This document shows, piece by piece, positions 9,856 through 30,094 of a DNA stretch of 33,738 nt (position 1 is the stretch's first letter; each line of letters begins with the position of its first letter). The position numbers and the translations under genes are program-made. The notes beneath the pieces were generated by a model. That model saw nothing but the letters and a program-made list of their open reading frames with translations, searched no databases and had not been told where the DNA came from. The DNA lies in NCBI GenBank assembly GCA_029262005.1, contig JAJDAG010000172.1:1-33738 (forward strand). The letters are read 5' to 3'. This DNA is from Candidatus Zhuqueibacterota bacterium. Lineage in GTDB: Bacteria > Zhuqueibacterota > Zhuqueibacteria > Oceanimicrobiales > Oceanimicrobiaceae.

Positions 9856-10639
9856 TGACAGTATCAAAAAAACCGTAGGTGTTGCTCTTGGCGTTTGCCT
9901 TGTCTGCTCAGTTTTGGTGTCCACTGCGGCGGTTACGCTGAATGCCATTCAAGAAGAAAATAAAAAGCTGGACAAGATAAAAAATATTCTGTTAGCCGGG
10001 GGATTGCTTTCTGATGGCATGGAGGATATAAAGGCCGCTTACGATGAAAAAGTTGAGCCGACGTTAATAGAACTGGCAACAGGCGCAATTGTGTCTGAGG
10101 AAAACTATGATAAAGTGCTCAATATTGAACACTTTGACTTGAAAGCCATTTGTTCTCATTCAGATTATAGCGATGCTATTTCACCCAAAAAAGACATTGC
10201 CAACATAAAGCGGCGCCCTCGATATATGCTGGTTTACAGTGTCAAAGAAAATGGCCAGACAGATAAGGTGATTTTACCGGTGTTTGGAAAAGGACTTTGG
10301 TCCACACTTTTCGGCTTTGTGGCTCTGAACAAAGATATGAAGACAGTTGCTGGTTTCACTTTTTACGAGCATGGGGAAACACCGGGTTTGGGCGGTGAAA
10401 TTGATAATCCGCGCTGGAAGAAAATGTGGCTTGGAAAGGCTGCGTTCAACGATGCAGGCGAGGTGGTAATTGAAGTGCTCAAAGGCAAAGTAGACAATGC
10501 CGGTGCCAATGCAAATCATCAGATTGATGGTTTGTCCGGGGCCACTTTAACCACGCGCGGCGTTGATCAACTTGTCAAGTATTGGCTTAGCAGTGACGGG
10601 TACGGCCCTTTTTTGAACAAATTGCGGCAGGAGGGTTAG
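9848..10639 (+). CDS. nqrC: Na+-translocating NADH:quinone reductase subunit C
   Basis: This 263-residue protein has one N-terminal membrane helix ([20 protein letters not shown]) and a periplasmic flavin domain. The FMN-attachment motif is [12 protein letters not shown], with Thr233 as the expected flavinylated residue. The start at 9848 is chosen because GAGGAG lies 11 bases upstream and the protein then begins directly before the membrane anchor; a longer in-frame start at 9782 would add an atypical basic extension inside nqrB. The stop TAG is followed immediately by the nqrD ATG. NqrC passes electrons through its FMN within the complex. Confidence 0.95.
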
Positions 10640-11260
10640 ATGAGTAAATATCGAAAAGTAATTGCGGATCCCATATTTCACAACAATCCCATCGCCTTGC
10701 AAATTTTGGGAATTTGCTCTGCGCTTGCAGTCACCACCAAACTCGAAACTGCAGCGGTGATGTCGTTGGCTGTAATCGCGGTGACGGCATTTTCAAATCT
10801 GGCGGTCAGTATTATTCGCAATCACATTCCAAGCAGCATCCGCATCCTGGTAGAAATGACTATCATTGCTTCGCTGGTAATCATTGCCGACCAGATCATT
10901 AAAGCGTATGCTTATGATATCAGTAAGCAATTGTCGATCTTTGTTGGTCTCATCATTACAAACTGTATTGTTATGGGCCGGGCCGAGGCATTCGCACTGA
11001 AAAATCCGCCGCTCGTGAGTTTTTTAGATGGCATTGGTAATGGCGTTGGCTACAGTTTGATATTGCTCCTAGTTGGTTTTTTTAGAGAATTGCTTGGCTC
11101 AGGCAAAGTTTTTGGAATATCGGTTTTGGCACTGAACACCGAGGGCGGTTGGTACGTGCCAAACGGATTGTTTCTGCTTTCTCCAAGCGCCTTTTTTCTC
11201 ATTGGTTTTATCATTTGGGCGCTGAGAGCCTGGTACCCTGAACAAGTAGAAAGGGATTAA
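10640..11260 (+). CDS. nqrD: Na+-translocating NADH:quinone reductase subunit D
   Basis: This 206-residue, very hydrophobic subunit of the NqrD/RnfE type has about six membrane helices. Two cysteines are in conserved half-helix positions: Cys26 in [10 protein letters not shown] and the one in [16 protein letters not shown]. Together with the matching pair in NqrE they ligate the buried iron centre of the complex. The ATG directly abuts the nqrC stop and nqrE follows after three bases, so the subunits are likely made in fixed ratio. Confidence 0.95.
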
Positions 11261-11263
11261 GCG

Positions 11264-11875
11264 ATGTTTGAACATTACTTAAATTTATTCATCAAGTCTA
11301 TTTTTATTGAGAATTTGGCGCTGTCGTTTTTTCTCGGCATGTGTACGTTTCTGGCTGTTTCCAAGAAAGTAGAAACAGCTGCGGGCCTTGGAGTTGCCGT
11401 CATTGTTGTGCAGGCAATCACCATTCCGGTTAACAACTTTATCTACACCAACCTTCTAAAAAAAGGCGCTCTTTCCTGGGCGGGTCTGGCTGAGGTTGAC
11501 CTGACGTTTCTCGGATTGATCACTTACATTGGCGTGATTGCGGCAATGGTACAAATTCTCGAAATGGCGCTTGATAAGTTTGTGCCAAAACTGTACAACG
11601 CGCTGGGGATTTTTCTGCCGCTTATTACAGTGAATTGCGCCATTCTTGGCGGTTCCCTTTTAATGGTAGAACGAAATTACAATTTTACAGAAAGCGTGGT
11701 CTACGGTGTCGGTTCCGGCACAGGTTGGGCCCTGGCAATTATTGGCCTGGCCGGCATACGCGAGAAAATGAAATACAGCAATGTGCCTGAAGGGTTGCGC
11801 GGTTTGGGTATCACTTTCATCACCGTTGGTTTGATAGCCATGGCGTTTATGTTATTTTCAGGAATTCAACTCTAA
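11264..11875 (+). CDS. nqrE: Na+-translocating NADH:quinone reductase subunit E
   Basis: This 203-residue, six-helix membrane subunit is paralogous to NqrD. The iron-site cysteines are Cys27 ([14 protein letters not shown]) and the one in [13 protein letters not shown]. It forms an inverted-topology pair with NqrD. It begins three bases after nqrD, and nqrF follows after 12 bases containing GAGGCGG. Confidence 0.95.
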
Positions 11876-11887
11876 CGAGGCGGTTAC

Positions 11888-13123
11888 ATGACAGGAATTA
11901 GTTTAATCACACTTAGCGTGTTCATGTTCACGCTCATCGTGCTGGCGCTGGTCGCGGTTATTCTATTGGCCAAATCGAAACTGGTCGCTTCCGGCAGTGT
12001 GAACATCGGAATCAACGGCGACCCGGGGCATGCCCTCAAAGTGCCCATTGGCGACAAACTACTCAATGTTTTGGCAGGGCAGAAAATTTTCATTTCATCT
12101 GCCTGTGGTGGCGGCGGCACTTGCGGTGAGTGTAGATTGATCGTTAAAGAAGGCGGGGGTGATGTTTTGCCAACCGAGACTTCCAAATTAACCAGAAGAC
12201 AGATTCGCGAAAAATATCGTCTCTCCTGCCAGGTTGCGGTTAAGTGTGATTTGGAAATCGAAGTTCCAGCCGAAGTGTTTGATATAAAAAAATGGGAATG
12301 TACTGTACGCTCCAATAACAACGTGGCCACTTTTATAAAAGAATTGGTTCTGGAACTGCCTGCCGGTGAAAATGTGGATTTCCGTGCGGGCGGATATATT
12401 CAAATTGAAGCGCCGGCGCATACGGTTAAATACTCGGAGTTTGATGTGGAAGAAGAGTACAAGCCGGATTGGGATCAGTTTAATGTGTGGCGTTATGTTT
12501 CCAAGGTCAACGAGCCCATTGTTCGGGCCTATTCCATGGCCAATTATCCTGAAGAGACGGGCATTATTATGCTCAATGTCCGTATTGCATCCCCGCCGCC
12601 GCGCCTGCCGGATGTGCCACCCGGACAGATGTCGTCTTTCATTTTTAATCTGAAGCCGGGCGATAAAGTGACAATTTCCGGCCCTTATGGCGAATTCTTT
12701 GCCCGTGAAACCAATAGCGAAATGATTTTCGTCGGTGGCGGTGCCGGTATGGCGCCAATGCGTTCACACATTTTTGATCAGTTGCGACGGCTTGGCTCCA
12801 GTAGAAAAATTTCTTACTGGTATGGCGCCAGAAGCTTGCGGGAAATGTTTTACGTTGAAGATTTTGATGAGCTGCAAAAAGAGAATGAAAATTTTCAGTG
12901 GCATGTCGGTTTGTCCGAGCCGCAACCGGAAGATAATTGGACAGGTTACACCGGCTTCATCCATCAGGTGCTTTTTGACAATTACCTAAAAGAGCACCCG
13001 GCGCCAGAGGATTGCGAGTACTATCTCTGTGGGCCGCCTATGATGAATAGCGCGGTAACAAAGATGCTTGACGACCTTGGTGTTGAGCCTGAAAATATCA
13101 TGTATGACGATTTTGGTGGATAG
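11888..13123 (+). CDS. nqrF: Na+-translocating NADH:quinone reductase subunit F
   Basis: This 411-residue NADH-oxidising subunit is the electron entry point of Nqr. One N-terminal membrane helix (residues about 4-27) is followed by a plant-type 2Fe-2S domain with ligands Cys73, Cys79, Cys82 and Cys114 ([11 protein letters not shown] and LSCQ). An FAD domain follows with RAYSMANYP, then an NADH-binding domain with [12 protein letters not shown] and the C-terminal [12 protein letters not shown] block. It ends with the conserved YDDFGG tail. It is the last structural nqr gene, and a terminator-like hairpin lies 17 bases after its stop codon. Confidence 0.97.
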
Positions 13124-16015: not shown

Positions 16016-17287
16016 ATGGCAATGACTTTAACTGAAAAAATTCTGGCAAATAGAGCTGGACTGGCGGGTGTGACACCCGGTGATTTGATAATTGCAAAAA
16101 TTGACATGGCCATGGCCACTGATATTTCATCGCCATTGACTATTAAAGTGTTTGAAGATATGGGTGCGGACAAAGTGTTCGACACCGGAAAAATTCCACT
16201 TGTGCACGACCATCTTGTACCTGCGAAAGATATCAAGTCGGCTGAATTTTCGAAAATTATGCGAAACTTTGCTGCTGCGCAAAATATTGAGCATTATTTT
16301 GAAGTGGGACGTTCCGGCATTTCCCATCAACTGTTGCCGGAACAAGGGCTCGTTCATCCTGGCGATGTTGTTTTAGGAGCCGATTCCCACAGTACTACTT
16401 ATGGCGCACTTGGCTGTTTTGCTACCGGTGTTGGCAGCACTGATATGGCTGCCGCCTGGGTGCTCGGGGAAACCTGGTTACGTGTGCCCGATTCTATCAA
16501 AATTCGTTTCAGCGGCAAACTGCCGGAGTGGGTTTCTGCAAAAGACATGATGCTCCTTGTCTGCCGCGATCTCGGGTTGGAAGGCGGCACTTATAAGGCG
16601 TTGGAATTTGGCGGTGAAACCATCGAAAACATGCCGATGTACGATCGTTTTGTTTTTGCAAATATGACGATTGAGTGCGGTGGAAAAAACGGGGTCGTCC
16701 TGCCGGATGAAACAACCCGAGAGTACCTGACCGGGCGGGCTAAAAAGCCGGAAGCCGAATGGATGTTCTTTCAGCCCGATGAAGATGCAACGTATTGCCG
16801 GGAACTCAACTATGATGTGAGTGATATGCAGCCGATGGTTGCGCGGCCAAATCTGCCTGGAAATGTTGTGACTGTAGAAGAGGTTGAGCAGGTTGCGGTT
16901 GATCAAGTTTACATTGGCTCTTGCACAAACGGCAAAATTGAAGATTTAAGAATAGCCGCACAAGTGCTGAAAGGGAAGCAGATAAACAAGACAACTCGCA
17001 TGGTTGTTGTGCCTGCAACTGAAAGTATTTACCACCAAATGTTGAAAGAAGGGCTGGCCGAAATTTTTCATGCTGCGGGCGCTTCTATCGGGCCGCCAAC
17101 GTGTGGCGCTTGTTTTGGTGCGCATATGGGCGTTATGGCAGCGGGCGAAGTTGGTGTGTTTACCACCAATCGCAATTTTGTCGGGCGCAACGGGTCCACT
17201 GAATCCAGTGTGTATCTTGTCAGCCCGGCCGTTGCCGCGGCAACGGCAATCCGGGGTGTGATTACGGATCCGCGTGAAGTTTTGTAA
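16016..17287 (+). CDS. Aconitase-superfamily large subunit (LeuC/HacA type)
   Basis: This 423-residue protein is a 3-isopropylmalate dehydratase/homoaconitase-type large subunit. The start (MTLTEKILANRAG) and GADSHSTTYGALGCFATGVGS blocks are typical. The 4Fe-4S ligands are Cys303 (GSCTNG) and Cys363 and Cys366 (PTCGAC). These enzymes isomerise 2- or 3-hydroxy acids through a dehydrated intermediate and need a small swivel subunit (LeuD type), which is not in this window. The gene has its own promoter and is followed by a 122-base gap. Its place beside citrate-related genes leaves open whether it acts on isopropylmalate, homocitrate or citrate. LeuC is the safest family name. Confidence 0.85.
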   Translation: MAMTLTEKILANRAGLAGVTPGDLIIAKIDMAMATDISSPLTIKVFEDMGADKVFDTGKIPLVHDHLVPAKDIKSAEFSKIMRNFAAAQNIEHYFEVGRSGISHQLLPEQGLVHPGDVVLGADSHSTTYGALGCFATGVGSTDMAAAWVLGETWLRVPDSIKIRFSGKLPEWVSAKDMMLLVCRDLGLEGGTYKALEFGGETIENMPMYDRFVFANMTIECGGKNGVVLPDETTREYLTGRAKKPEAEWMFFQPDEDATYCRELNYDVSDMQPMVARPNLPGNVVTVEEVEQVAVDQVYIGSCTNGKIEDLRIAAQVLKGKQINKTTRMVVVPATESIYHQMLKEGLAEIFHAAGASIGPPTCGACFGAHMGVMAAGEVGVFTTNRNFVGRNGSTESSVYLVSPAVAAATAIRGVITDPREVL

Positions 17288-17409
17288 TAGTACGAATTTA
17301 TTTTGCGCTGCATTTGCGCGATAGATTTGGTATTTTCTGAGTTTGCATCCTTGAATATTTGAATTGTCTCAAGGCAATTTTTTTATCTAAAAGAGGACAG
17401 TGTTGTTCA

Positions 17410-18393
17410 GTGCCGGAAGATAACGAGGTGTTTGACGTCGTAATAATTGGTGCGGGCCCCAGTGGACTTGCCTGCGCCATTGCAGCAAAGAAATTTGACT
17501 TTAACTACCTGCTGCTCGAAAAGGGCTGCCTGGTAAACTCTATTTTCCATTTCCCTTCGCAAATGATCTTCTTTTCAACGCCTGAATTGCTTGAGATCGG
17601 CAATATCCCTTTCATTATTTCAAATGAAAAACCAGCGCGTGCTGATCTCCTGAAATATTATCGTGCCGTGACCGAGCACTACGAATTGAACTTGAGGATG
17701 TTTGAAAACGTGGAGGCAGTGACCGGGCAGTCTGGCGGCTTTTCAATTCAAACCGGCAATGGCCGGGCATACACTGCGGCCAATATCGTTTTGGCTACCG
17801 GCCAATATGATCGACCCAATATGATGGGAATTCCAGGCGAAGAATTGAACAAAGTCAGTCATTATTTCACAGAAGCCCATTCATTCTATAAGAAGAAAGT
17901 TGTTGTTATTGGCGGGAAAAATTCAGCGGTCGAGGCTTCTCTTGAATTGTACAAAGCCGGCGCCGATGTCACGCTCATTCATCGGCATGATGACTTTGGT
18001 CAGTCGGTGAAATACTGGATTCTGCCTGACATCCGTAACCGTATCAAGGAAAATAAAATTACGGCACACTTCAATACCGAGGTTAAGGAAATTCGAGAAA
18101 ATAGCATCATCATTGAAGATGGAAGTGGGAAACAAACGGCGTTTGAGAATGATTTTGTTTTTGCTCTGACCGGTTATAATCCCGATACGGCATTTTTCCG
18201 AAAACTTGGTATCGGGATCGAAGCACAACAAAAACCGGTTCATAATCCCAAGACGCTCGAAACCAACATATCAGGCATTTACGTAGCCGGGGTCATAACG
18301 GCCGGCTCCGACGGTAGCAAAGTCTTCATAGAGAACTCACGTCATCATGGCGATTTAATTATGGGAAATATCCTAAATGGCAGCAAAAACTGA
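17410..18393 (+). CDS. ypdA: YpdA-like FAD/NAD(P)H oxidoreductase (bacillithiol disulfide reductase family)
   Basis: This 327-residue flavoprotein has an N-terminal FAD motif VVIIGAGPSGLACA, the family segments FFSTPELLEIGNIPF and VKYWILPDIRNRIKE, a second dinucleotide motif VVVIGGKNSAVEASLEL, and the C-terminal GVITAGSDGSKVFIENSRHHG. YpdA/Bdr proteins reduce bacillithiol disulfide with NADPH. The Cys of the usual G-P-C-G motif, implicated in activity in Staphylococcus, is Ser18 here, so activity may be different. The start GTG at 17410 is chosen over the earlier TTG at 17359 because AGAGGA precedes it and the N-terminus then matches the family. The end overlaps the lpd start by 17 bases, suggesting coupled translation. 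Confidence 0.8.
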   Translation: MPEDNEVFDVVIIGAGPSGLACAIAAKKFDFNYLLLEKGCLVNSIFHFPSQMIFFSTPELLEIGNIPFIISNEKPARADLLKYYRAVTEHYELNLRMFENVEAVTGQSGGFSIQTGNGRAYTAANIVLATGQYDRPNMMGIPGEELNKVSHYFTEAHSFYKKKVVVIGGKNSAVEASLELYKAGADVTLIHRHDDFGQSVKYWILPDIRNRIKENKITAHFNTEVKEIRENSIIIEDGSGKQTAFENDFVFALTGYNPDTAFFRKLGIGIEAQQKPVHNPKTLETNISGIYVAGVITAGSDGSKVFIENSRHHGDLIMGNILNGSKN

Positions 18394-19780
18394 GCAGTTT
18401 GATCTCGCGGTTATTGGTGGTGGGCCGGGTGGTTATGTGGCGGCTATTCGTGCGGCACAGTTGGGGTTAAAGTCATGTGTAATTGAAAGGGACAAATTAG
18501 GCGGACTTTGTTTAAACTGGGGCTGCATTCCCAGCAAAGCATTGTTAAAAAGCGCGGAAGTTTACCGCTTGGTTCAGGAGGCCGACTCTTACGGAATCAG
18601 TACCGGCGAAGTAAAGTTTGATGCCAAAAAAATCGTGCAACGCAGTCGTGCTGCGGCTGAGCAGTTGAGCAAAGGCATTGCATTCTTGCTGAAAAAAAAC
18701 AAGGTGGCGCATATTGCCGGTACCGGGGTCATCAAGGGAAAAGGCATTGTCGAAATTTTTACTAAAGACAAAGCCGAATTGACCGTTAATGCCAAACATA
18801 TCGTGGTGGCAACCGGTGGATTTACCCGGTCGCTACCAGGCGTTGAAATCGATGGTAAAAAAGTGATTTCCAGCCGGGAAGCGTTGGTTTTGAGTAAGCT
18901 GCCAAAATCGGTGGTGATCATCGGCGGTGGCCCGATTGGCGTTGAATTTGCTTATTTTTATAATTCTTTTGGCGTGAAATGCAGCATCGTTGAAATGATG
19001 CCGCACATTCTACCCATGGAAGACGCGGAAATTGCAAAAACCTTGCAGAGAAATTTTAAGAAAAACAAGGTTGCACTTTTTACCGAGAGCAAGGTTGAAA
19101 GTGTCAAGACGACGGCTGCCGGCGTAACCGTTACCGTTTCCGGCAAAAAGGGCACAGAGGAAATTAAAGGTGATATTGCTTTAATGGCAGTAGGTTTTGG
19201 CGGTTTTACGGACGGCCTTGGTCTGGAAAATGTTGGCGTAGTCACGGATCGTAGTTTCATAAAGGTAGATGAAAACTATCAAACGAATGTGCCGGGCATT
19301 TTTGCCATAGGCGATGTCATTGGGCCGCCGCTGCTGGCGCATGTTGCCTCGGCTGAAGCCATTTTTCTGGTTGAAAAATTAGTGGGGCATAATCCGACGC
19401 CGGTGGATTACGGCAACATTCCCGGCTGCACTTATTGCCAGCCGCAAGTGGCCAGCGTTGGCCTGACCGAAGAAAAGGCTATTGAAACGGGCCATAAAAT
19501 AAAGGTCGGACGTTTCCCGTTTCGTGCAAACGGCAAGTCTATCGCTGTTGGCGAAATCGAAGGGTTGGTCAAGTTGATATTTGATGAAAAGTACGGCGAA
19601 CTGCTCGGAGCCCACATTATCGGGGTAGAAGCCACAGACATGATTGCGGAGCTGGTTCTGGCCAGAACACTGGAAACAACCGTTACCGAAGTTATGAAGT
19701 CTGTACATGCGCACCCAACTTTGTCTGAGGCTGTCATGGAGGCAGCGGCAGATGCCATGGGTGAGGCGATTCATATTTAG
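18377..19780 (+). CDS. lpdA: Dihydrolipoyl dehydrogenase (E3)
   Basis: This E3 flavoenzyme reoxidises dihydrolipoamide of 2-oxoacid dehydrogenase or glycine cleavage complexes with NAD+. The 467-residue protein shows the FAD motif VIGGGPGGYVAAIRAAQLG, the redox pair Cys45 and Cys50 (GGLCLNWGCIPSK), the NAD motif VVIIGGGPIGVEFAYFY, AIGDVIGPPLLAHVAS, and the C-terminal His-Glu base block HAHPTLSEAVMEA. It overlaps ypdA by 17 bases and is followed 72 bases later by lipB, which supplies the lipoyl precursor. No E1 or E2 subunit gene is in the window, so the partner complex is encoded elsewhere. Confidence 0.96.
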   Translation: MAAKTEQFDLAVIGGGPGGYVAAIRAAQLGLKSCVIERDKLGGLCLNWGCIPSKALLKSAEVYRLVQEADSYGISTGEVKFDAKKIVQRSRAAAEQLSKGIAFLLKKNKVAHIAGTGVIKGKGIVEIFTKDKAELTVNAKHIVVATGGFTRSLPGVEIDGKKVISSREALVLSKLPKSVVIIGGGPIGVEFAYFYNSFGVKCSIVEMMPHILPMEDAEIAKTLQRNFKKNKVALFTESKVESVKTTAAGVTVTVSGKKGTEEIKGDIALMAVGFGGFTDGLGLENVGVVTDRSFIKVDENYQTNVPGIFAIGDVIGPPLLAHVASAEAIFLVEKLVGHNPTPVDYGNIPGCTYCQPQVASVGLTEEKAIETGHKIKVGRFPFRANGKSIAVGEIEGLVKLIFDEKYGELLGAHIIGVEATDMIAELVLARTLETTVTEVMKSVHAHPTLSEAVMEAAADAMGEAIHI

Positions 19781-19852: not shown

Positions 19853-20545
19853 ATGAAAGCAGGGACTTTACTCAATGCCGGACTTCTTGACTACCAACAA
19901 GCCTGGGACTTGCAAAAACAATTGCACCAGCAGCGAGTCAAAAGCGAGATCGGCGATACGCTCATCATGACTGAGCATCCGCACACTTACACGCTGGGCA
20001 AGACTGCGCGTGAGGCACATTTGGTCGCGGAGGAAAGTGCACTGCAAAAGCAGGGCGTAAATGTCTATCGAATCGACCGTGGAGGCGATATTACCTACCA
20101 CGGCCCCGGTCAAATCGTCGGCTACCCGATTTTGGATTTGCACGATCATTATTTGGACATGCACCGCTATTTGCGCGAGCTTGAGCAGGTGATAATTGAC
20201 CTGCTGTCTGATTACGGAATTCAAGCCGGCAGGGAAGAGGGACTCACCGGCGTCTGGGTAGATGGCGCCAAGGTCGCTGCCATCGGCGTGAAAGTCACGC
20301 GCTGGGTTACGATGCACGGTTTTGCGCTTAATGTGAATACTGATTTGAGTTATTTCAGTAATATTATACCGTGCGGAATTGTTGATAAACCGGTGACCTC
20401 GATGCAGCAATTAGTGGGAAAACAAATGAATTTTGCCGATGTTGTAGAAAGGGTTATTTCACATTTTTCGAATATATTCAGGATTGAATTCATTGTTGCT
20501 AGCCGGCGCAGTGTTTCACGATTGCAGGCAACGGCACTGGTTTAG
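19853..20545 (+). CDS. lipB: Octanoyl-[acyl carrier protein]:protein N-octanoyltransferase (lipoate biosynthesis)
   Basis: LipB moves octanoate from acyl carrier protein to lipoyl domains, the first step of lipoate synthesis. This 230-residue protein carries the signature RGGDITYHGPGQIVGYPILD, the catalytic Lys147 (VAAIGVKVTRW) and the nucleophile Cys174 (NIIPCGI), followed by DKPVTSM. It follows lpdA by 72 bases, which links it to 2-oxoacid dehydrogenase or glycine cleavage function. The radical SAM partner LipA is not in this window. The length and motifs are standard for the family. Confidence 0.95.
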   Translation: MKAGTLLNAGLLDYQQAWDLQKQLHQQRVKSEIGDTLIMTEHPHTYTLGKTAREAHLVAEESALQKQGVNVYRIDRGGDITYHGPGQIVGYPILDLHDHYLDMHRYLRELEQVIIDLLSDYGIQAGREEGLTGVWVDGAKVAAIGVKVTRWVTMHGFALNVNTDLSYFSNIIPCGIVDKPVTSMQQLVGKQMNFADVVERVISHFSNIFRIEFIVASRRSVSRLQATALV

Positions 20546-20618: not shown

Positions 20619-22163
20619 GTGGCACGACTACACGAATATCAAGGGAAAGAACTGTTAAAACAGTTTAAAGTAAAAACGCCGCGCGGCAGCATTGCCTGCA
20701 CGGCGGACGAGGCATTCAAGGTAACAGCAGAACTCGCGACCCCGGTCGTGGTTAAAGCCCAGGTCTGGACGACAAAACGGGCGGACTTTGGCGGCATTCA
20801 ATTTGCCAAAACAGCAGAAGAAGCGAAAACAAAAGCAGAAAAACTTCTCGGGTTGCAGGTACAGGATTTTACCATCGACACCGTCCTGGTTGAAGAGCAA
20901 ATCAAAATCGAGCGCGAGTTTTACGCCGGCATTGTCATCGACGATTCGTCGAAATGCCCGGTGCTGATTTTTAGCTCGATGGGCGGCAGTGGAATTGAAG
21001 AAATCGCTGAAGCACACCCCGACAAAGTAGCGAAAGTCAACATAGATATTGTAGAGGGCCTTCGTGATTACCAGGCCCGCAATCTCATTCGCGCCACTGG
21101 TATTTCCGGAAAATTGCAGATGCAGTTGGCTGGGGTTCTCGTAAAGTTATGGCAGGTGGCGCGCAAATACGAAGCACGTTCGGCGGAGATTAACCCACTG
21201 GTTCTAACCGCCAACGGTGAAATCATGGCCGCCGATTGCCGGGTGACTGTTGATGACTACGCTGTTTTTCGGCACCCGGATCTGGGTATCGAGATTGCGC
21301 GCGAGTTAAACCGTCCACCTTCTCAGTTAGACAAAATCGCTTACGATGTTGAAAAGAATGACTACCGCGGCACTTTTTATTTTATCCAAATGGAAAGTGG
21401 TTTTAAGAAGAATGATGGCTATGTCGGCTTTCACGGTGCAGGCGGCGGCGGCTCTATGATGTCCATGGATGCGGCGCACACGCAGGGTTTTAAGCTGGCT
21501 AATTTTACCGACACCAGCGGTAACCCGGCTGCCTCAAAAGTGTATCGTGCTGCGCGAATAATTTTGGCGCAAAAAAATATTGTAGCCTATTTTGGCTCCG
21601 GATCTGGCGTTGCGAGTCAGGAGCAGTTTCATTCGGCTCGCGGTCTGGCCAAAGCTTTTATTGAAGAAAATCTCTCCATTCCAGCCGTGATCAGGTTGGG
21701 CGGCAATTTGGAGGATAAAGCCATCGACATACTTGAAACCTGCACTAAAGGCTTGCCTGCGCCGGTTGAAGGCTATAAAAAAGACGACACGGCGCATTTT
21801 TGTGCAGAGCGCCTCCGGCATCTGGTCGAGACTTTCCAACCTGATTCAGGTGCGCGGGAGAAGTTTGAAAAGCCTGATTTTGACAAGCCGTACTCTTTTG
21901 AAACCATTACCGGCAAGATTACTTTTGACCATGGCGTCTGTGCGGAGTGTGACCATCACGCTTGTGTTGAGGCTTGCATTCCGGAAATTCTCAAGTTGGA
22001 AAACAATGTCCCTGTACTCGCAATTAGTACGGAAGAAGCAAAAACCGGAAAGTGCATCGAATGCCTCGGGTGTGAAATGGAATGTGTTTACCGCGGCAAA
22101 CGCGGCGCCTATATTGAATTGCCCATCGCCGGGTTGGACGAATACGTTGGGGAGGAAGACTGA
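20619..22163 (+). CDS. SucC-like ATP-grasp CoA ligase subunit fused to a two-cluster ferredoxin domain
   Basis: Residues 1 to about 390 form an ADP-forming CoA ligase beta subunit. The start MARLHEYQGKELLKQF and the SAEINPLVLTANGEIMAAD block are SucC-type, and LANFTDTSGNPAASKVYRA fits the ligase domain. The usual glycine-rich ATP loop after KAQV is replaced by WTTKRADFGG. A C-terminal domain of about 85 residues carries two 4Fe-4S motifs, Cys441, 444, 449 and 453 (CAECDHHACVEAC) and Cys479, 482, 485 and 489 (CIECLGCEMEC). The start is GTG, and the stop overlaps the sucD-like ATG by one base. With the next two genes it could form a citryl-CoA synthetase/lyase set; succinyl-CoA or malate-CoA ligase are alternatives. 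The reaction is not settled by sequence. Confidence 0.82.
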   Translation: MARLHEYQGKELLKQFKVKTPRGSIACTADEAFKVTAELATPVVVKAQVWTTKRADFGGIQFAKTAEEAKTKAEKLLGLQVQDFTIDTVLVEEQIKIEREFYAGIVIDDSSKCPVLIFSSMGGSGIEEIAEAHPDKVAKVNIDIVEGLRDYQARNLIRATGISGKLQMQLAGVLVKLWQVARKYEARSAEINPLVLTANGEIMAADCRVTVDDYAVFRHPDLGIEIARELNRPPSQLDKIAYDVEKNDYRGTFYFIQMESGFKKNDGYVGFHGAGGGGSMMSMDAAHTQGFKLANFTDTSGNPAASKVYRAARIILAQKNIVAYFGSGSGVASQEQFHSARGLAKAFIEENLSIPAVIRLGGNLEDKAIDILETCTKGLPAPVEGYKKDDTAHFCAERLRHLVETFQPDSGAREKFEKPDFDKPYSFETITGKITFDHGVCAECDHHACVEACIPEILKLENNVPVLAISTEEAKTGKCIECLGCEMECVYRGKRGAYIELPIAGLDEYVGEED

Positions 22164-23074
22164 TGGCCATTTTAATCAACGAAGAAAACCGTGTGCTTGT
22201 CCAGGGTATTACCGGACGCGAGGGGTTAACTCGCGCAAAATTGATGATGGAATACGGCACCAAAGTTGTGGCCGGCGTCACCCCTGGAAAGGGTAACCAA
22301 ACTGTGCTGGAAGTACCAGTTTTTGATACGGTTAAAGAAGCGACAGAGAACGTTGCCGGCATTAACACTTCTGTGATTTTTGTGCCGGCGCCGCTGGTAA
22401 AAAATGCCGCTTTGGAAGCCATTGACGCCGGTATAAAGCTGCTGGTCATCGTGCCGGATCGCGTTCCCATGTACGATGTGCTGGAAATTGCCCATGCTGC
22501 TGAACAAAACGGCGCTCGTTTTGTTGGTCCCAATACTTTGGGTTTGTTAAGTGTTGGCAAAGGGGTTTTGGGTATGATTGGCGGTCGGGCGGAAACGGCG
22601 CGGCAGTGGTTCCGGAAAGGACATGTCGGCGTTACATCCAGAAGTGGAGGTATCACTTCTTCCATTTCTTACTATCTAAGCCGCAGTGGCATCGGACTGA
22701 GTTCCATTGTTCACGTTGGCGGCGATGGCATCGTTGGCACGCCGCATCCGGAGGTTATTAAATTATTTCAGGACGATGATGACACAAATGCCGTGGTGAT
22801 GTTCGGCGAAATCGGCACGACCCAGGAAGAGCAGGTTGCTGACTTGATTGAATCAGGCAAATTCACCAAACCGCTGATCGCTTTTATCGGCGGGAAAGCG
22901 GCGAAATCCGGCACACGTTTTTCACACGCCGGCGCCATTGTCGAGGGTAACCGCGGCACACATGAAAGTAAAGTACGACGTTTGCGAGAGGTTGGTGCAC
23001 ACATTGTTGAGCATTTTGATGATATTCCAAAAGTAACCCGGGAAGTCCTGGACGATCTCAATTTGCAAAGTTGA
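22163..23074 (+). CDS. SucD-like CoA ligase alpha subunit
   Basis: This is a 303-residue partner of the preceding ATP-grasp subunit. It has the CoA-binding Rossmann start (VLVQGITGREGL, AGVTPGKGNQ), the PAPLVKNAALEAIDAGIKLL block, the SRSGGITSSISYYLSRSG loop and the phosphorylatable active-site His255 in FSHAGAIVEGNRGTHESK. Such subunits form an acyl-phosphate and then an acyl-CoA, reversibly, with ATP. Succinate, citrate and malate are all used within the superfamily. The ATG overlaps the preceding stop by one base, so the two are made as a pair. The next gene is a citryl-CoA-lyase-like protein, 164 bases on, which tilts the interpretation to citryl-CoA synthetase (CcsB role). Confidence 0.87.
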   Translation: MAILINEENRVLVQGITGREGLTRAKLMMEYGTKVVAGVTPGKGNQTVLEVPVFDTVKEATENVAGINTSVIFVPAPLVKNAALEAIDAGIKLLVIVPDRVPMYDVLEIAHAAEQNGARFVGPNTLGLLSVGKGVLGMIGGRAETARQWFRKGHVGVTSRSGGITSSISYYLSRSGIGLSSIVHVGGDGIVGTPHPEVIKLFQDDDDTNAVVMFGEIGTTQEEQVADLIESGKFTKPLIAFIGGKAAKSGTRFSHAGAIVEGNRGTHESKVRRLREVGAHIVEHFDDIPKVTREVLDDLNLQS

Positions 23075-23238
23075 AACCAAAACAAGTGCTTTTACCCATG
23101 ATTTGTGAAGCGGCCAGCGAACGAATCAGGGGGAGGCCTGACACACGCAACTTTGAAATACAGTCATGGCTTCAAGGAAACTGCAATAAAATAGGAATAA
23201 ACAGTAATTTTTAAACAACTTATAGTAGGTGTTGCAAC

Positions 23239-24015
23239 ATGAGTGATTTACACTGGAAAACAGCAATTACTAAAATCAAACCCAATGAAGTGCGTTTGCG
23301 GGGCTACCGCATTGAAGAACTGATGGGAGAAGTCTCATTTGGTCAGGCCGTTTATCTGGCTTTGAAGGGTGAGTTGCCGTCAGAAAATGCCGGCAAAATG
23401 CTGGATGCCATTCTCGTTTCGTCCATAGATCATGGCGCAACGCCACCTTCTGCGTTGGCCGCAATGACCGTCGCCTCTACTGGTTCCGGGCTGAACGCAT
23501 CGGTTGCAGCGGGGATTTTGGCTATTTCCCGTTTTCACGGTGGTGCAATCGAAGACGGCATGGCCATTCTGCTGCAGGCCGATGACAAAATGAGGGCGAG
23601 AGAGATTTCTGCTGCCGTTGCCTGCAAAGAACTTGTTGCAGAGTACCGCGAAATGCGCCGCAGAATATCCGGGTTTGGCCACCGGCTTCACACTGCTGAC
23701 CCGCGTTCCGCCCGCCTGTTTGATTTGGCTAAGGATTTGGAAATCGGTGATCATTTTATTGAGATAGCCAAAACCGTTGAGTCTGAGCTTGAGAAACAGT
23801 CAGGGAAAAAGCTGCCGATTAACGTCGATGGCGCCATTGCCGCAGTTTTGTGTCAGTTGGACTTTGCGCCGAAATTGGCCAATGCATTTTTTATGATTGC
23901 ACGGCTTCCTGGCCTGGTGGCGCATGTGCACGAAGAGCAGACGCGGCACAAGCCGATGCGCTCTATTCATCCAAAAGACCACGAATACGATGGACCGGAA
24001 GACAGAACACTTTAG
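23239..24015 (+). CDS. Citryl-CoA lyase-like protein (short citrate synthase superfamily member)
   Basis: This 258-residue protein matches the C-terminal citryl-CoA lyase module of ATP-citrate lyase and the stand-alone Ccl of Hydrogenobacter, and is far shorter than citrate synthase (about 370-430 residues). Candidate catalytic residues all line up: His100 (RFHGGAIEDG), His148 (GFGHRLHTADPRS) and Asp197 (PINVDGAIAAVL). The NVDG form is typical of lyases, whereas citrate synthases usually have NVDFYSG. The expected reaction is citryl-CoA to acetyl-CoA plus oxaloacetate. It sits directly after a CoA ligase pair that could make citryl-CoA. A methylcitryl-CoA or other 3-hydroxyacyl-CoA substrate cannot be excluded. 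Confidence 0.82.
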   Translation: MSDLHWKTAITKIKPNEVRLRGYRIEELMGEVSFGQAVYLALKGELPSENAGKMLDAILVSSIDHGATPPSALAAMTVASTGSGLNASVAAGILAISRFHGGAIEDGMAILLQADDKMRAREISAAVACKELVAEYREMRRRISGFGHRLHTADPRSARLFDLAKDLEIGDHFIEIAKTVESELEKQSGKKLPINVDGAIAAVLCQLDFAPKLANAFFMIARLPGLVAHVHEEQTRHKPMRSIHPKDHEYDGPEDRTL

Positions 24016-24095: not shown

Positions 24096-24632
24096 ATGGA
24101 GAAAGCCAAACTGCTGGAACTTATTCCCGAATTTAATCTCATTAAAGATGAGGACCTGCGTGAAAACACCATTGCCATCTGGGAAGAAGCGACAAACTAC
24201 CGTAATTGGACAGCCGAAGAGTTGCTGAATATTCCATTTACACTTCTGGCAGACAACTGCAAAATAAAGTATCTGGAACATGTGCGTACGGTTTGCCAAA
24301 TGTGTGTTGCGTGTGATGAAGTGCTCACCACAGCCTATGGCGAACGGAAAACACCGGTTAATCGGGATTACTTAATTGCCGGGGCCATGCTTGCAGATGT
24401 GGGTAAGCTTTATGAGTACGACAAAGAAAACGGCAACGTGGTCAAAAGTAAGCACGGCAAATATTTGCGCCATCCTTTCAGTGGCGTTGGCCTTTGCTTC
24501 AAATATGATATTCCCGAGGAAGTCATGCACGTTGTTGCCGTGCACTCGAAAGAGGGAGATCATTTTCCACGGTCGCCTGAAGCGATAATTTTGCATCACG
24601 CCGACTTTATTGATTTTGATTTGGTGAAGTAA
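24096..24632 (+). CDS. HD-domain-like protein with altered metal site
   Basis: This 178-residue protein has the helical layout of an HD phosphohydrolase. The first His is His62 (YLEHVRTV), then comes a block GAMLADVGKLYEY where the family normally has HD, here Ala100-Asp101, then HPFSGVG, VVAVHSKEG and ILHHADFIDFD. Losing the signature His would weaken or change metal binding, so catalysis by the usual route is doubtful. The motif VCQMCVACDE adds three close cysteines of unknown role. It lies between the citryl-CoA-lyase-like gene (80 bases before) and icd (165 bases after), so it is probably part of this metabolic cluster. No substrate can be given. Confidence 0.7.
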   Translation: MEKAKLLELIPEFNLIKDEDLRENTIAIWEEATNYRNWTAEELLNIPFTLLADNCKIKYLEHVRTVCQMCVACDEVLTTAYGERKTPVNRDYLIAGAMLADVGKLYEYDKENGNVVKSKHGKYLRHPFSGVGLCFKYDIPEEVMHVVAVHSKEGDHFPRSPEAIILHHADFIDFDLVK

Positions 24633-24797: not shown

Positions 24798-25916
24798 ATG
24801 GCAAAGTACAAAATAGCATGGTTACCGGGAGACGGCGTTGGCAACGACGTTATGGAGGCTGCTAAAATCGTCCTGGATGCGTTAAAGTTAGACGCTGAAT
24901 ACCAACACGGCGACATCGGCTGGGAGTTCTGGAAAAGCGAAGGCAATCCATTGCCTGACCGTACCATTAAATTACTCAAGAACACAGATGCCTGTCTCTT
25001 TGGCGCGATTACGTCGCTGCCTAAGGAAGAGGCACAAAAAGAATTGGCGCCTGAATTGCAAGACAAAGGCCTGACTTACTCCAGCCCAATTGTGCGCCTG
25101 CGCCAGGAATTCAATTTACACACAAATCTACGCCCGTGCAAAGCCTACTCGGGCAATCCTTTAAATTTCCGAGATGATATTGATCTGGTGGTCTTCCGTG
25201 AAAACACCGAAGATATGTACGTCGGTGTGGAATTTCACCCGCTGCCGCAAGATGTCATGGACGTTGTTTGCGCCAATTCAGCCAAAATGAAACGTTTCGC
25301 CGACACACCTCTGGACGAAATCGCGGTTTCATTGCGTATAAACACGATCAAGGCTTCTCGGAGCATTGTCACCCAGGCGTTTGAATATGCGAAGAAGCAT
25401 GGCTACAAAACTGTGACCATCGTCGAAAAACCAAACGTGCTGCGCGAAACGAGCGGCCTGGTGGTACGGGAAGCGCGCAAGGTTGCGGCGAACTACCCGG
25501 GTATTGATTTGTGGGAAACCAACATCGACGCCATGTGCATGTGGCTCATCAAGAATCCACAAAACTACGGCGTTCTGGTTGCAACGAATATGTTTGGCGA
25601 TATTATTTCCGACCTTTGTGCGCAACTCATTGGCGGCCTTGGGTTTGCTTCCAGTGGCAATATTGGTGATAATTACGCCGTGTTCGAACCCACCCATGGT
25701 TCTGCCCCAAAATATGCCGGGCAGTATAAAGTGAATCCTATGGCAATGCTCTTAACAACCAAACTAATGCTTGATTGGCTCGGTGAACTGCAATTGGGTG
25801 AGAAGCTCGATAAGGCCATTTCCAGCGTTATCAATGATGCAAAGGTCAAGACCTATGACATGGGCGGTAATTCATCCACTTTGGATGTTGCTGAAGAGGT
25901 CGTCCGAAAATTGTAG
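24798..25916 (+). CDS. icd: Isocitrate dehydrogenase (isocitrate/isopropylmalate dehydrogenase family)
   Basis: This 372-residue beta-decarboxylating dehydrogenase probably interconverts isocitrate and 2-oxoglutarate. The opening is WLPGDGVGNDV, substrate-binding arginines are in LRQEFNLHTNLRP, and the RENTEDMYVGVE loop is of isocitrate dehydrogenase type. The coenzyme segment FEPTHGSAPKYAG has Lys-Tyr at the positions that give NADP+ preference in the Escherichia coli enzyme, whereas NAD-type enzymes usually have Asp-Ile there. So NADP+ is the likely coenzyme; that is inference. A good AGAGGA ribosome site precedes the ATG. The VEKPNVLRETSG block departs from the common HKANI form, so an isopropylmalate or related hydroxy-diacid substrate cannot be fully ruled out. 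Confidence 0.85.
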   Translation: MAKYKIAWLPGDGVGNDVMEAAKIVLDALKLDAEYQHGDIGWEFWKSEGNPLPDRTIKLLKNTDACLFGAITSLPKEEAQKELAPELQDKGLTYSSPIVRLRQEFNLHTNLRPCKAYSGNPLNFRDDIDLVVFRENTEDMYVGVEFHPLPQDVMDVVCANSAKMKRFADTPLDEIAVSLRINTIKASRSIVTQAFEYAKKHGYKTVTIVEKPNVLRETSGLVVREARKVAANYPGIDLWETNIDAMCMWLIKNPQNYGVLVATNMFGDIISDLCAQLIGGLGFASSGNIGDNYAVFEPTHGSAPKYAGQYKVNPMAMLLTTKLMLDWLGELQLGEKLDKAISSVINDAKVKTYDMGGNSSTLDVAEEVVRKL

Positions 25917-25977: not shown

Positions 25978-27351
25978 ATGATTATGACTTCTCTATCAAG
26001 ACAAATCGCACGTTTTGCATTATCTTTAAAATATGAAGATTTACCTGCTGATGTTGTAAACGAAGTAAAACGCTATCTCTACGATTCAATCGGTTGCGCT
26101 TATGGCGGCTATCAAACACATGACGTCGATATTGTGAAATCAATTCATGATGAAATGGGCGGTAAAGCCGAGGCCACTATCATTGGTAGCGGTGATAAAA
26201 TTCCGGCCTACAACGCCACTTTTGTAAACAGCCTGATGATTCGCGCGCTTGATTTTAATGATATTTATTGGAAGGAAGACCCCAGCCACCCAAGCGATAT
26301 TATTCCGGTGGCGCTGGCCGTTGGTGAGCGGGAAGGCAGTTCTGCCAAAGATGTAATCACCGCCATTGTTTTGGCCTACGAATTCGAAATGCGTTTGTGT
26401 GAATTTGCTGTGCCGGGTGTGCGTGAGCGTAAGTGGCACCATGCAACTTTGACGCAATTTGTCTCGCCGATAGTTGCCGGTTATTTGCTTGGGCTGAACG
26501 AGGAGCAAATGGTTCACGCCATCGGCATTTCCGGAGCACACAATCTGACGCTTGGCGCTGTGACCGCAGGCAAACTCACCATGATGAAAAATACGGTTGA
26601 TCCGATGGCTGCACAAAGCGGCGTTATGGCAGCTTTGATGGCGCAACGTGGTTACAGCGGTACTGAACAAATTTTTGAAGGAAAAGAAGGCCTCATGCAA
26701 ACCCTCGGCCCTGACTGGGACAATGAAAAACTGGTTGGCGGGCTGGGCGACAGTTTTAAGATTCTCGAGTGTTCAATGAAGGGATTTCCCACTGAGGCCT
26801 TAACACACACGCATATTTCCGCCACGCTTAAAGTAATCATTGAAAATGATATTAAACCGGATGATATTGAGGAAGTCATAGTGACCACCATTGCTCGCGC
26901 TGTGGATATTTTGTTTGACGATGAAAAATACAATCCTTCATCCCGCGAGACTGCCGATCACAGTCTGCCGTACTGCATCGCTGCCGCCATTGTTGATCGC
27001 AAAATAACAGGTGATCAGTTTAGTGATGAACGCATTCAGGATCCGGCTATCAAATCCGTGCTTGGCAAAATAAAGGGCGAGGCCAGCGAGGAATTTGAAA
27101 AAATGTTTCCGGCGAAGCAGCCTTCCAAAGTCAAGGTCCGGCTTAAGAGCGGTGCTGAGTTCACTGCGCAGCTTGATTACCCCAAAGGCGATCCGCGCGA
27201 ACCTATGACTGAGCAGGACTTGGACACTAAATTCAGTGGTTTGAGCTCGTCTTTGTTTGGCCCTGACAAACAAAACGCAATCAAAAAGGCAATCTGGGAC
27301 TTGGAGAGCTATGCGACCATTAATGGATTTATGGCGCAGTTGCGTGTTTGA
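25978..27351 (+). CDS. MmgE/PrpD family protein (2-methylcitrate dehydratase-like)
   Basis: This 457-residue protein has the MmgE/PrpD arrangement: the N-terminal helical domain with YLYDSIGCAYGGYQ, NATFVNSLMIRALDFND, WHHATLTQFVSPIVAGYLLG, GAHNLTLGAVTAGKLTMMKN, and the C-terminal alpha-beta lid containing TADHSLPYCIAAAI. Members dehydrate 2-methylcitrate or citrate to the aconitate form, decarboxylate cis-aconitate, or epimerise iminodisuccinate. Here it lies 61 bases after icd and near a citryl-CoA-lyase-like gene, which points to a C6 tricarboxylate substrate. No methylcitrate synthase or methylisocitrate lyase is nearby, so propionate degradation is not supported. The start could be the ATG at 25978 or the one at 25984. 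Confidence 0.83.
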   Translation: MIMTSLSRQIARFALSLKYEDLPADVVNEVKRYLYDSIGCAYGGYQTHDVDIVKSIHDEMGGKAEATIIGSGDKIPAYNATFVNSLMIRALDFNDIYWKEDPSHPSDIIPVALAVGEREGSSAKDVITAIVLAYEFEMRLCEFAVPGVRERKWHHATLTQFVSPIVAGYLLGLNEEQMVHAIGISGAHNLTLGAVTAGKLTMMKNTVDPMAAQSGVMAALMAQRGYSGTEQIFEGKEGLMQTLGPDWDNEKLVGGLGDSFKILECSMKGFPTEALTHTHISATLKVIIENDIKPDDIEEVIVTTIARAVDILFDDEKYNPSSRETADHSLPYCIAAAIVDRKITGDQFSDERIQDPAIKSVLGKIKGEASEEFEKMFPAKQPSKVKVRLKSGAEFTAQLDYPKGDPREPMTEQDLDTKFSGLSSSLFGPDKQNAIKKAIWDLESYATINGFMAQLRV

Positions 27352-28222: not shown

Positions 28223-30094
28223 GTGCCAAACGCTCTAAAACTACTTCAAAATAAATTCAGCGATTGCATCCGCGAGACAAATTGTCATCTCGGTGACACC
28301 AGCGCGGTAGTTAACAAAAAAGCCGTCCACGATATCCTGGAGTTTCTCCGTGATGATGCCGATCTCAATTTTGACCTGCTTGTGGACTTGACCTGCGTTG
28401 ATTATGGTGAAGGCGAACCACGCTTTGAAATCGTCTATCTGCTGCATTCATTCAAAACAAAGGCACGCATTTTTATCAAAGCGCAAGTGTCGGAACCTGA
28501 CCCGCAAGTGCAAACGGTTTCTGATTTGTGGCACATCGCCGATTGGTACGAACGCGAAGTCTGGGATTTGTTTGGTGTAAGTTTCAAGGGACACCCTGAT
28601 TTGCGGCGCCTGCTTATGTACGAGGAGTTTCAAGGACATCCGCTGCGCAAAGATTATTCAATTGACAAGCGCCAGCCGCTGGTCACTGCCGAAGGCACCA
28701 ACAACAGTCAAATCACCCCTACGCTTGAGCAAAGCCAACAAGCCATGGAAGAATACGTGTCCGAAGAAAACGGGCTCAGCGTCAGGCATATGTTTTTGAA
28801 TATGGGGCCATCGCATCCGGCCATGCACGGCGTAGTCAAAATTGTGCTTGAGCTGGATGGGGAGAAGGTCGTTGGCTCGGATGTCGGCATTGGCTACCTG
28901 CACCGGGCTTTTGAGAAACACGCGGAGAACATCAGTTACACTGGTGTTTTCCCCTACACCGATCGGCTGAATTACGTGTCGCCAATTATCAACAATGTTG
29001 GCTACGCTTTGGCCGTGGAAAAGCTGCTCGGCATTGAGGTTACCGAGCGCTGCAAATACATTCGCGTAATCATGAGCGAAATTTCCCGCATTGCTGATCA
29101 TTTAACCTGCATCGGCGCAATGGCGATGGAGCTAGGCGCCATGACCCCATTCCTCTATTTTATGCAAGCGCGCGAGGCTATGTACCAGCTCATCGAAGAA
29201 GTCACCGGAGCGCGTATCACCGTTTCGTACGTGCGTGTGGGTGGCGTCAAGGCAGATTTGCCTGCCGGCTTCGAGTCGCGCGTGCATGATCAGCTTAAAA
29301 AAGTGCGCGCTGAACTAAAGCAGGTACACAGACTTCTGAGCCGCAACCGTATTTTTGTTGACCGAGTGCAGGGCATTGGTGCGATTTCAACTGCGGACGC
29401 GATTTCATACAGTTTTACCGGCCCAATGCTTCGCGCTTGCGGCGTTGATTATGATGTGCGCAAAACCTTTCCTTACAGCAATTATGACCGCATCGATTTT
29501 GATGTGCCGGTTGGCGAGAATGGCGATATTTTGGACCGCTATCTGGTGCGCATGGAAGAGATTGAACAAAGCTGTCGCATTATTGAACAGGCATTTGAAA
29601 AAATTCCGGTCGGCAATGTAATGGTTGATTTTACCGGTAAAGAAATTCCGGCTGAAAAAATGGCGGATCTTGGTAAGTTCGGTCAGACAGAGGGCCTGCT
29701 CCTGCAGGTGGCAGTTACCGATCCCACGTTGCTTGGCGCCGGCGAGTCGGAACACGCCGAGGTGCGGCACGCAGATAAACGCGTCAGTCTGCCGGCGAAA
29801 GAAAAGACCTACGCCAGCATTGAAGGGCTGATTAATCATTTTATGCTCATCATGGACGGTCACGGCATTTGCCCGCCCAAAGGAGAAGCCTACTTCCCGG
29901 TGGAAGGCGCAAACGGCGAACTCGGATTTTACATCGTCAGCGATGGCAGCGACAAAGCTTACAGAGTTCGCTGCAGACCGCCCTGTTTTGCTTTTGTAGC
30001 CGGCTTCAGCAAAATGATTGAAGGCTGCCAACTCGCAGATATTATTCCCGCGTTTGGCTCCATCAATATGATTGCAGGGGAGCTTGATCGGTGA
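28223..30094 (+). CDS. nuoCD: NADH-quinone oxidoreductase subunit C/D fusion
   Basis: This 623-residue protein fuses the 30-kDa (NuoC) and 49-kDa (NuoD) subunits of complex I. The NuoC part (about 1-165) shows YEREVWDLFGVSFKGHPDLR and GHPLRKDY. After a short linker, the NuoD part begins near MFLNMGPSHPAMHG, with His198 in the quinone-pocket loop, and continues through YLHRAFEKHAENISY to the C-terminal FGSINMIAGELDR. The two domains are separate genes in many bacteria but fused in Escherichia coli and others. The GTG start is three bases after nuoB. The stop overlaps the GTG start of nuoE by four bases (GTGA). Confidence 0.96.
   Translation: MPNALKLLQNKFSDCIRETNCHLGDTSAVVNKKAVHDILEFLRDDADLNFDLLVDLTCVDYGEGEPRFEIVYLLHSFKTKARIFIKAQVSEPDPQVQTVSDLWHIADWYEREVWDLFGVSFKGHPDLRRLLMYEEFQGHPLRKDYSIDKRQPLVTAEGTNNSQITPTLEQSQQAMEEYVSEENGLSVRHMFLNMGPSHPAMHGVVKIVLELDGEKVVGSDVGIGYLHRAFEKHAENISYTGVFPYTDRLNYVSPIINNVGYALAVEKLLGIEVTERCKYIRVIMSEISRIADHLTCIGAMAMELGAMTPFLYFMQAREAMYQLIEEVTGARITVSYVRVGGVKADLPAGFESRVHDQLKKVRAELKQVHRLLSRNRIFVDRVQGIGAISTADAISYSFTGPMLRACGVDYDVRKTFPYSNYDRIDFDVPVGENGDILDRYLVRMEEIEQSCRIIEQAFEKIPVGNVMVDFTGKEIPAEKMADLGKFGQTEGLLLQVAVTDPTLLGAGESEHAEVRHADKRVSLPAKEKTYASIEGLINHFMLIMDGHGICPPKGEAYFPVEGANGELGFYIVSDGSDKAYRVRCRPPCFAFVAGFSKMIEGCQLADIIPAFGSINMIAGELDR

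Follow-up and report, generated by a model that had tools for sequence, protein, structure and literature searches.

Two-step citrate cleavage, by a citryl-CoA synthetase (CcsA/CcsB, or CCS) and a separate citryl-CoA lyase (Ccl, or CCL), is known biochemically from Hydrogenobacter and its relatives, and both steps are thermodynamically reversible. Outside the Aquificae, a report on Mushroom Spring describes a putative CCS/CCL in Planctomycetes OTU-14, encoded by SucCD-like and citrate-synthase-like genes (PMC5459899), and a large genome survey recovered the CCS/CCL form in only 10 metagenome-assembled genomes (MAGs; PMC9802188). Here we analyse a 33,738-nucleotide stretch of DNA from Candidatus Zhuqueibacterota bacterium (assembly GCA_029262005.1, contig JAJDAG010000172.1, positions 1 to 33,738, forward strand; this whole stretch is hereafter the window), in which positions 20,619 to 24,015 encode a SucC-like and SucD-like CoA-ligase pair followed by a Ccl-type protein. 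We consider it probable that these genes form a reversible two-step citrate cleavage and synthesis module of a new subtype, whose ligase beta subunit (SucC-Fd) ends in a ferredoxin-like domain. A first-pass annotation of this DNA had proposed a two-step citrate-cleavage module; that proposal is still the best reading of the locus and passes both tree comparisons reported below, with the amendment that the ligase is not CcsA. What the analysis shows directly is the gene content, the conserved catalytic residues, the separate ligase lineage, the conserved operon and a statistical link to the loss of citrate synthase and isocitrate dehydrogenase; the substrate, direction, iron-sulfur content and function of the module are inferred.

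Ligase, lyase and ferredoxin-like domain

The core of the module comprises three genes, the first of which encodes the additional domain:

20619..22163, + strand: CoA-ligase beta subunit, SucC-like (SucC-Fd); GTG start, 514 aa, with ATP-grasp, CoA-ligase and C-terminal ferredoxin-like domains
21888..22145, + strand: eight-cysteine domain of SucC-Fd, about residues 424-509, predicted to be of the 2x[4Fe-4S] type
22163..23074, + strand: CoA-ligase alpha subunit, SucD-like; 303 aa, with the phospho-histidine loop FSHAGAI
23239..24015, + strand: citryl-CoA-lyase-type protein (Ccl); 258 aa, with His100, His148 and Asp197

The layout is as first annotated: the open reading frames agree with a ligase pair sharing base 22163, where the TGA stop of the SucC-like gene ends on the first base of the SucD-like ATG (TGATG, a one-base overlap), and the 258-residue lyase follows. 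Pfam assigns the SucC-like protein to ATP-grasp_2, the SucD-like protein to CoA_binding and Ligase_CoA, and the short lyase to Citrate_synt.

Family comparisons place the lyase with citryl-CoA lyases. Ccl scores 282 bits against a cut-off of 212 with the NCBIfam 'citryl-CoA lyase' subfamily model PRK06224.1-6, and its closest PDB entry is the Hydrogenobacter citryl-CoA lyase 6hxp (E 5e-66). The catalytic-type residues His100, His148 and Asp197 and the NVDG block picked out in the first-pass annotation are all present and are kept in aligned relatives, one of which reads NADG. Arginines also align with the positions that serve oxaloacetate in citrate synthase. In the lyase tree, full-length citrate synthases stand apart from Ccl (97/96), so the short protein does not group with them, and Ccl lacks their length (258 aa versus about 350-430 aa). 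A citrate synthase fragment is ruled out by the complete 258-aa open reading frame, the separate clade and the retention of the gene in other phyla.

The ligase combines CcsA-like substrate motifs with a lineage of its own. SucC-Fd and CcsA have in common an RPP...D(Y/H)RG insertion, GGGGS and GNPP, which are missing from SucC; the ATP-citrate lyase (ACL) counterpart has a partly equivalent insertion, GGGA and GNPP, and SucC shows none of them. In the PDB, the substrate domain matches CcsA best (37.5 bits), nearly level with Thermus SucC (37.2 bits). An IQ-TREE analysis of 33 beta-subunit sequences, with no MtkA included, gathers the fusion proteins into one group (99/98) and all SucC into another (100/99), with CcsA and AclB outside both; the ligase thus does not group with ordinary SucC. 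The AclB/AclA branches are extremely long in both trees, making the deep order of CcsA, ACL and SucC-Fd unreliable. An ordinary succinyl-CoA synthetase is ruled out by the tree, the motifs and a separate ordinary SucCD in the genome.

The first-pass annotation overlooked the eight-cysteine domain; it also passed over an HD gene (24096-24632) and an aconitase-family gene lying upstream (16016-17287). The tail of SucC-Fd, about 90 residues following the ATP-grasp and CoA-ligase domains, carries the two four-cysteine motifs of a 2[4Fe-4S] ferredoxin domain, and its cysteines (C441, C444, C449, C453, C479, C482, C485 and C489) are 8/8 invariant in an alignment of 44/44 homologues. Pfam Fer4 matches to the tail are sub-threshold only (best Fer4_9, 19.7 bits, E 9e-4), and a phmmer search of the PDB returned no relative of the domain at E<1. 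An AlphaFold2 model of SucC-Fd built on the 44-sequence alignment has a mean pLDDT of 89, rising to ~90-95 across most of the ferredoxin-like domain, and Foldseek matches the remainder of the model to succinyl-CoA synthetases, citryl-CoA synthetase and ATP-citrate lyase. From the cysteine pattern, we predict that the domain holds two [4Fe-4S] clusters. Redox sensing or the docking of a ferredoxin enzyme is its probable task, and its role may be that of a redox gate, a docking site for KorABC or a structural element. We found no description of a ferredoxin-domain ligase in the open-access literature searched, a scope that leaves most subscription journals outside, and a query joining SucC with a ferredoxin domain returned one unrelated match. 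If real, such a conserved iron-sulfur domain would give ATP-grasp CoA ligases a device for regulation or coupling that is new.

As we picture the chemistry, SucC-Fd and SucD would interconvert citrate + CoA + ATP and citryl-CoA + ADP + Pi via the ATP-grasp domain and the phospho-histidine of the alpha subunit, and Ccl would interconvert citryl-CoA and acetyl-CoA + oxaloacetate using His100, His148 and Asp197. In genomes that lack citrate synthase, operation towards citrate could save one ATP per citrate.

Operon, distribution and loss of citrate synthase

The core is flanked by further genes, some of them probably outside the module:

24096..24632, + strand: HD-domain protein; 178 aa, Pfam HD, operon-conserved
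24798..25916, + strand: Icd, of the isocitrate/homoisocitrate-dehydrogenase family; 372 aa, NADP-type site HGSAPKYAGQ
25978..27351, + strand: MmgE/PrpD-family protein; 457 aa, the second hydro-lyase candidate
16016..17287, + strand: aconitase/homoaconitase/isopropylmalate-isomerase-type large subunit; 423 aa, with homologues within the operon in other phyla
18377..19780, + strand: dihydrolipoamide dehydrogenase; conserved upstream neighbour, probably outside the module
19853..20545, + strand: LipB lipoyl transferase; conserved upstream neighbour, probably outside the module

The Icd-like and PrpD-like genes adjoin the three-gene cluster, as had been noted before. Related genomes from the same family (71-90% identity) retain the order SucC-SucD-Ccl-HD-Icd-PrpD, and other phyla largely do so too, a degree of conservation far beyond chance. 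The closest named record, a MAG of candidate division KSB1 (L055), has the same gene order. Scanning 84,980 species genomes with the conserved alignment as query, we kept 80 fusion loci (54-78% identity) in genomes named as KSB1, Calditrichota, Neomarinimicrobiota, Zixibacteria, Gemmatimonadota, Cloacimonadota, Acidobacteriota, Chloroflexota, Aminicenantes, Deinococcota, Desulfobacterota, Bacillota and others; the fusion spans at least ten phyla, as far as MAG names, which may be imprecise, can be followed. Across 85 stretches, many of which end at contig ends, SucD was present in 76, Ccl in 63, HD in 47, an aconitase-type gene in 36, Icd in 27 and PrpD in 15. Two sister families of the same class (f7 and f10, L135-L140) carry ATP-citrate lyase instead, with an AclB of ~420 aa and an AclA of ~905 aa. 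No overlap of SucC-Fd and AclB within the window's phylum was seen, in numbers too small to matter.

There is a tendency for clusters to contain two hydro-lyase candidates: an enzyme of LeuCD type or a 650-aa one of homoaconitase type, accompanied by PrpD or by another LeuCD. This looks like a division of dehydration and hydration between enzymes. The clusters compared in this respect were L078, L092, L103, L108, L122 and L133 versus the window, L058, L062, L082, L101, L118 and L132. Three Anaerolineae loci (L082, L101 and L118) have a divergent KorABC-HdrA-EtfAB-type cluster directly upstream of the fusion, and the KorA of L082 scores 561 bits against an NCBIfam cut-off of 411. There, KorABC lies beside a 1140-aa HdrA2-like protein, a TfrB/HdrB-like protein and EtfAB; KorABC-HdrA2-EtfAB is a possible electron-bifurcating unit for 2-oxoacid oxidation. 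Within the proposed module, the aconitase-family, PrpD and NADP-Icd neighbours would connect citrate, isocitrate and 2-oxoglutarate, and in some Anaerolineae the adjoining KorABC, a 2-oxoacid:ferredoxin oxidoreductase, would continue to succinyl-CoA. The HD protein (24096-24632; relatives in L055-L133) is retained in the operon across many phyla with His and Asp residues conserved, and its model (pLDDT 90) has its best fold match in YhaM (E 1e-4), a generic HD-phosphohydrolase.

Comparative genomics ties the module to citrate synthase. Among the 45 fusion-bearing genomes first examined, all except G086 have a Ccl-type match and about ten are without a full-length citrate synthase. We compared 396 genomes from the Chloroflexota class of one of them, G110 (an Anaerolineae MAG, locus L102), filtered for completeness of at least 85%, calling the fusion at E < 1e-100 and citrate synthase when the best PF00285 match was stronger than 1e-50. 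Citrate synthase was missing from 21/31 fusion genomes and from 64/365 fusion-free genomes (Fisher p = 8e-9, odds ratio 9.9), with counts drawn from incomplete draft MAGs and statistics that ignore relatedness. Canonical isocitrate dehydrogenase, recognised by its match length of ~1140 bp, was present in 8/10 of the fusion genomes with citrate synthase and in 1/21 of those without (p = 5e-5). In the latter, the sole remaining non-LeuB family member is usually the cluster Icd, which is 60-71% identical to that of the window where checked. G110 is the cleanest case: it has Ccl only, its single aconitase-family gene and single Iso_dh gene both belong to the cluster, and neither a citrate synthase nor a PF00682 member was found in it. 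The lack of a PF00682 protein means that G110 has neither Re-citrate synthase nor LeuA; the former enzyme is known from other Chloroflexota (PMC3971608). This genome and the joint losses are as expected if the module takes over the segment from citrate to 2-oxoglutarate, and the module probably replaces citrate synthase in the genomes that lack it. Two further fusion-bearing genomes (G263 and G378) appear to be without both citrate synthase and Ccl matches, reflecting missing sequence or another lyase.

Several observations weigh against a citrate module of this kind. Most of the 45 module genomes retain citrate synthase, and the draft state and relatedness of the genomes temper the counts above. 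The ANNT loop of CcsA and ACL, which contacts citrate in ACL structures, is ASQE in SucC-Fd, invariantly in the 44 homologues, and throughout the aligned family the Ccl loop after the second catalytic His (GHR) has one residue fewer than its counterparts in 6hxp and the citrate synthases. Constraining SucC-Fd to group with CcsA costs 8.7 log units and is marginally rejected (approximately unbiased (AU) test, p = 0.033), as is a grouping of SucC with CcsA (p = 0.035). By sequence, SucC-Fd is a distinct third lineage; given the marginal AU tests and the long branches, we claim no more from the tree. We reject a plain CcsA orthologue on the tree and the missing ANNT loop. The likeness of the ligase to CcsA extends to the shared substrate-domain motifs but not to the lineage, the ANNT loop or the iron-sulfur-type domain.

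The same departures leave room for homocitrate or another longer tricarboxylic acid as the substrate, an unlikely alternative that we nevertheless take seriously. Acetyl-CoA and 2-oxoglutarate would then be interconverted with homocitryl-CoA, and this with homocitrate and ATP, and the neighbouring enzymes would lead on through homoaconitate and homoisocitrate to 2-oxoadipate. The best model for Icd is the AksF2 homoisocitrate dehydrogenase (340 bits, below the cut-off of 540), two aconitase-family enzymes, from L096 and L132, score above the cut-off of the homoaconitase model TIGR00139 (743 and 670 versus 530 bits), and the ligase and lyase substrate loops both deviate from the citrate forms. 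The tendency towards two hydro-lyases also counts against citrate, and many module hosts have an ordinary citrate synthase as well. However, a homocitrate route leaves unexplained why citrate synthase and ordinary isocitrate dehydrogenase go missing together in module-bearing genomes; the Icd cofactor site HGSAPKYAGQ resembles that of NADP-isocitrate dehydrogenase, none of the recurrent neighbours was recognised as an alpha-aminoadipate lysine gene, and the family membership of Ccl and the CcsA-like motifs favour citrate. Citrate is thus well ahead of homocitrate as the substrate, though not beyond doubt.

Building on the citrate module, we tentatively suggest a more specific picture, which we hold with less than even confidence. 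SucC-Fd may represent an undescribed class of iron-sulfur citryl-CoA (or homocitryl-CoA) synthetase that is widespread in uncultured anaerobes and that, with Ccl, has taken the place of citrate synthase, forming citrate and ATP together; the ferredoxin-like domain would tie the ligase to redox state or to 2-oxoglutarate:ferredoxin oxidoreductase.

The genome of the window's organism

The window (C82 in our contig numbering) belongs to a 5.77 Mb genome, in which targeted searches located two full-length citrate synthases (C39 and C62), AcnA (C141) and a second aconitase (C111). A second isocitrate-dehydrogenase-family gene lies beside the C39 citrate synthase, and ordinary SucCD (C57) and LeuC/LeuB (C184) are also encoded. 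Since ordinary citrate synthases, aconitases, isocitrate dehydrogenase and SucCD are all present, the module is an addition in this organism, not a replacement. Because the organism keeps ordinary citrate synthase, a role in citrate cleavage or as an anoxic alternative is more likely here. The LeuC/homoaconitase-type large subunit at 16016-17287 has no small subunit beside it in the window, and the separate leu operon is on C184.

Autotrophy, raised in the first-pass annotation, may apply to this organism, whose genome also holds ordinary citrate synthases, aconitases and SucC. Of the oxidoreductases that the annotation had proposed to look for, a KorB of the 2-oxoglutarate:ferredoxin-oxidoreductase type is above cut-off (C16), and pyruvate:ferredoxin oxidoreductase yields weak matches only. 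In its strong form, in which the organism is an autotroph running the module in a reductive tricarboxylic acid (TCA) cycle, we regard the idea as improbable. KorB together with the lack of any 2-oxoglutarate dehydrogenase E1 above cut-off in this genome makes the cycle potentially reversible, and the presence of ATP-citrate lyase instead of the module in sister families also speaks for it; against it, the two citrate synthases, AcnA, the second aconitase and the other isocitrate dehydrogenase suffice for an ordinary oxidative cycle. As an account of the genome comparisons, CO2 fixation does no better than a takeover of the citrate synthase role in anaerobes, and perhaps less well.

A nuo operon starts 32 bases past the PrpD gene and includes a fused NuoC-NuoD (28223-30094), an arrangement that suggests co-transcription with the citrate module in the window's family. 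Positions 7313-13123 hold a sodium-pumping NQR operon, with NqrA, an NqrB/RnfD-type protein, an FMN-binding subunit, two Rnf-Nqr membrane subunits and an NqrF-type flavoprotein; after these come a CBS-domain protein and ApbE. At 17359-18393, a gene that overlaps the one for dihydrolipoamide dehydrogenase encodes a putative bacillithiol disulfide reductase of the YpdA type, which scores above its NCBIfam cut-off.

Comparison with known citrate-cleaving and CoA-ligase systems

It is very improbable that the ligase is a succinyl-CoA or malate thiokinase and the neighbouring lyase unrelated to it: although the fold and full-length scores of SucC-Fd are closest to succinyl-CoA synthetase (Thermus 3ufx) and the best NCBIfam matches of both subunits are the SucC and SucD models, both are below cut-off (261 versus 370 bits for SucC-Fd), the malate-CoA ligase (MtkA) model scores lower still on SucC-Fd (191 bits versus a cut-off of 604), an ordinary SucC/SucD pair lies elsewhere in the genome (C57), SucC-Fd falls outside all SucC (99/98), and the linkage between Ccl and the ligase recurs in many phyla.

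If the module performs the same chemistry as the Hydrogenobacter enzymes, the two-step route is far commoner than surveys suggest, and CcsA-based markers may miss the SucC-Fd lineage. It could give anaerobes without citrate synthase an ATP-conserving means of citrate formation, and it bears on the evolution of citrate synthase, ATP-citrate lyase and the direction of the TCA cycle.

Set beside described enzymes, the ligase resembles SucCD in its fold, ATP-grasp domain and phospho-histidine loop, and differs in lying outside the SucC clade, in its substrate-domain insertion and motifs, and in its ferredoxin-like domain. ATP-citrate lyase (AclBA) has homologous domains and the same overall chemistry, with GGGA and GNPP in its beta subunit; its lyase, however, is fused to the ligase alpha part (AclA of 905-917 aa in the sister families), whereas the lyase of the window is free. 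Desulfobacter postgatei, in which ATP-citrate lyase runs in reverse to form ATP and citrate (Moller et al. 1987, as cited in PMC12137691), offers a precedent for a citrate-cleaving enzyme that makes citrate and ATP, though with ATP-citrate lyase and not a separate ligase and lyase. The genes of Planctomycetes OTU-14 have been placed between Aquificae CCS-CCL and type II ACL, and the section of that report consulted does not mention a ferredoxin-like domain (PMC5459899). The system of Hydrogenobacter thermophilus (CcsA/CcsB and Ccl; PDB 6hxq and 6hxp) shares with the window three separate genes and the same reaction logic, as well as the RPP...D(Y/H)RG insertion and the GGGGS and NFTD..GNP motifs of the beta subunit. 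The window departs from it in a separate ligase lineage, ASQE in place of ANNT, a C-terminal iron-sulfur-type domain and a shorter Ccl loop, and its operon adds HD, aconitase-family, Icd and PrpD genes.

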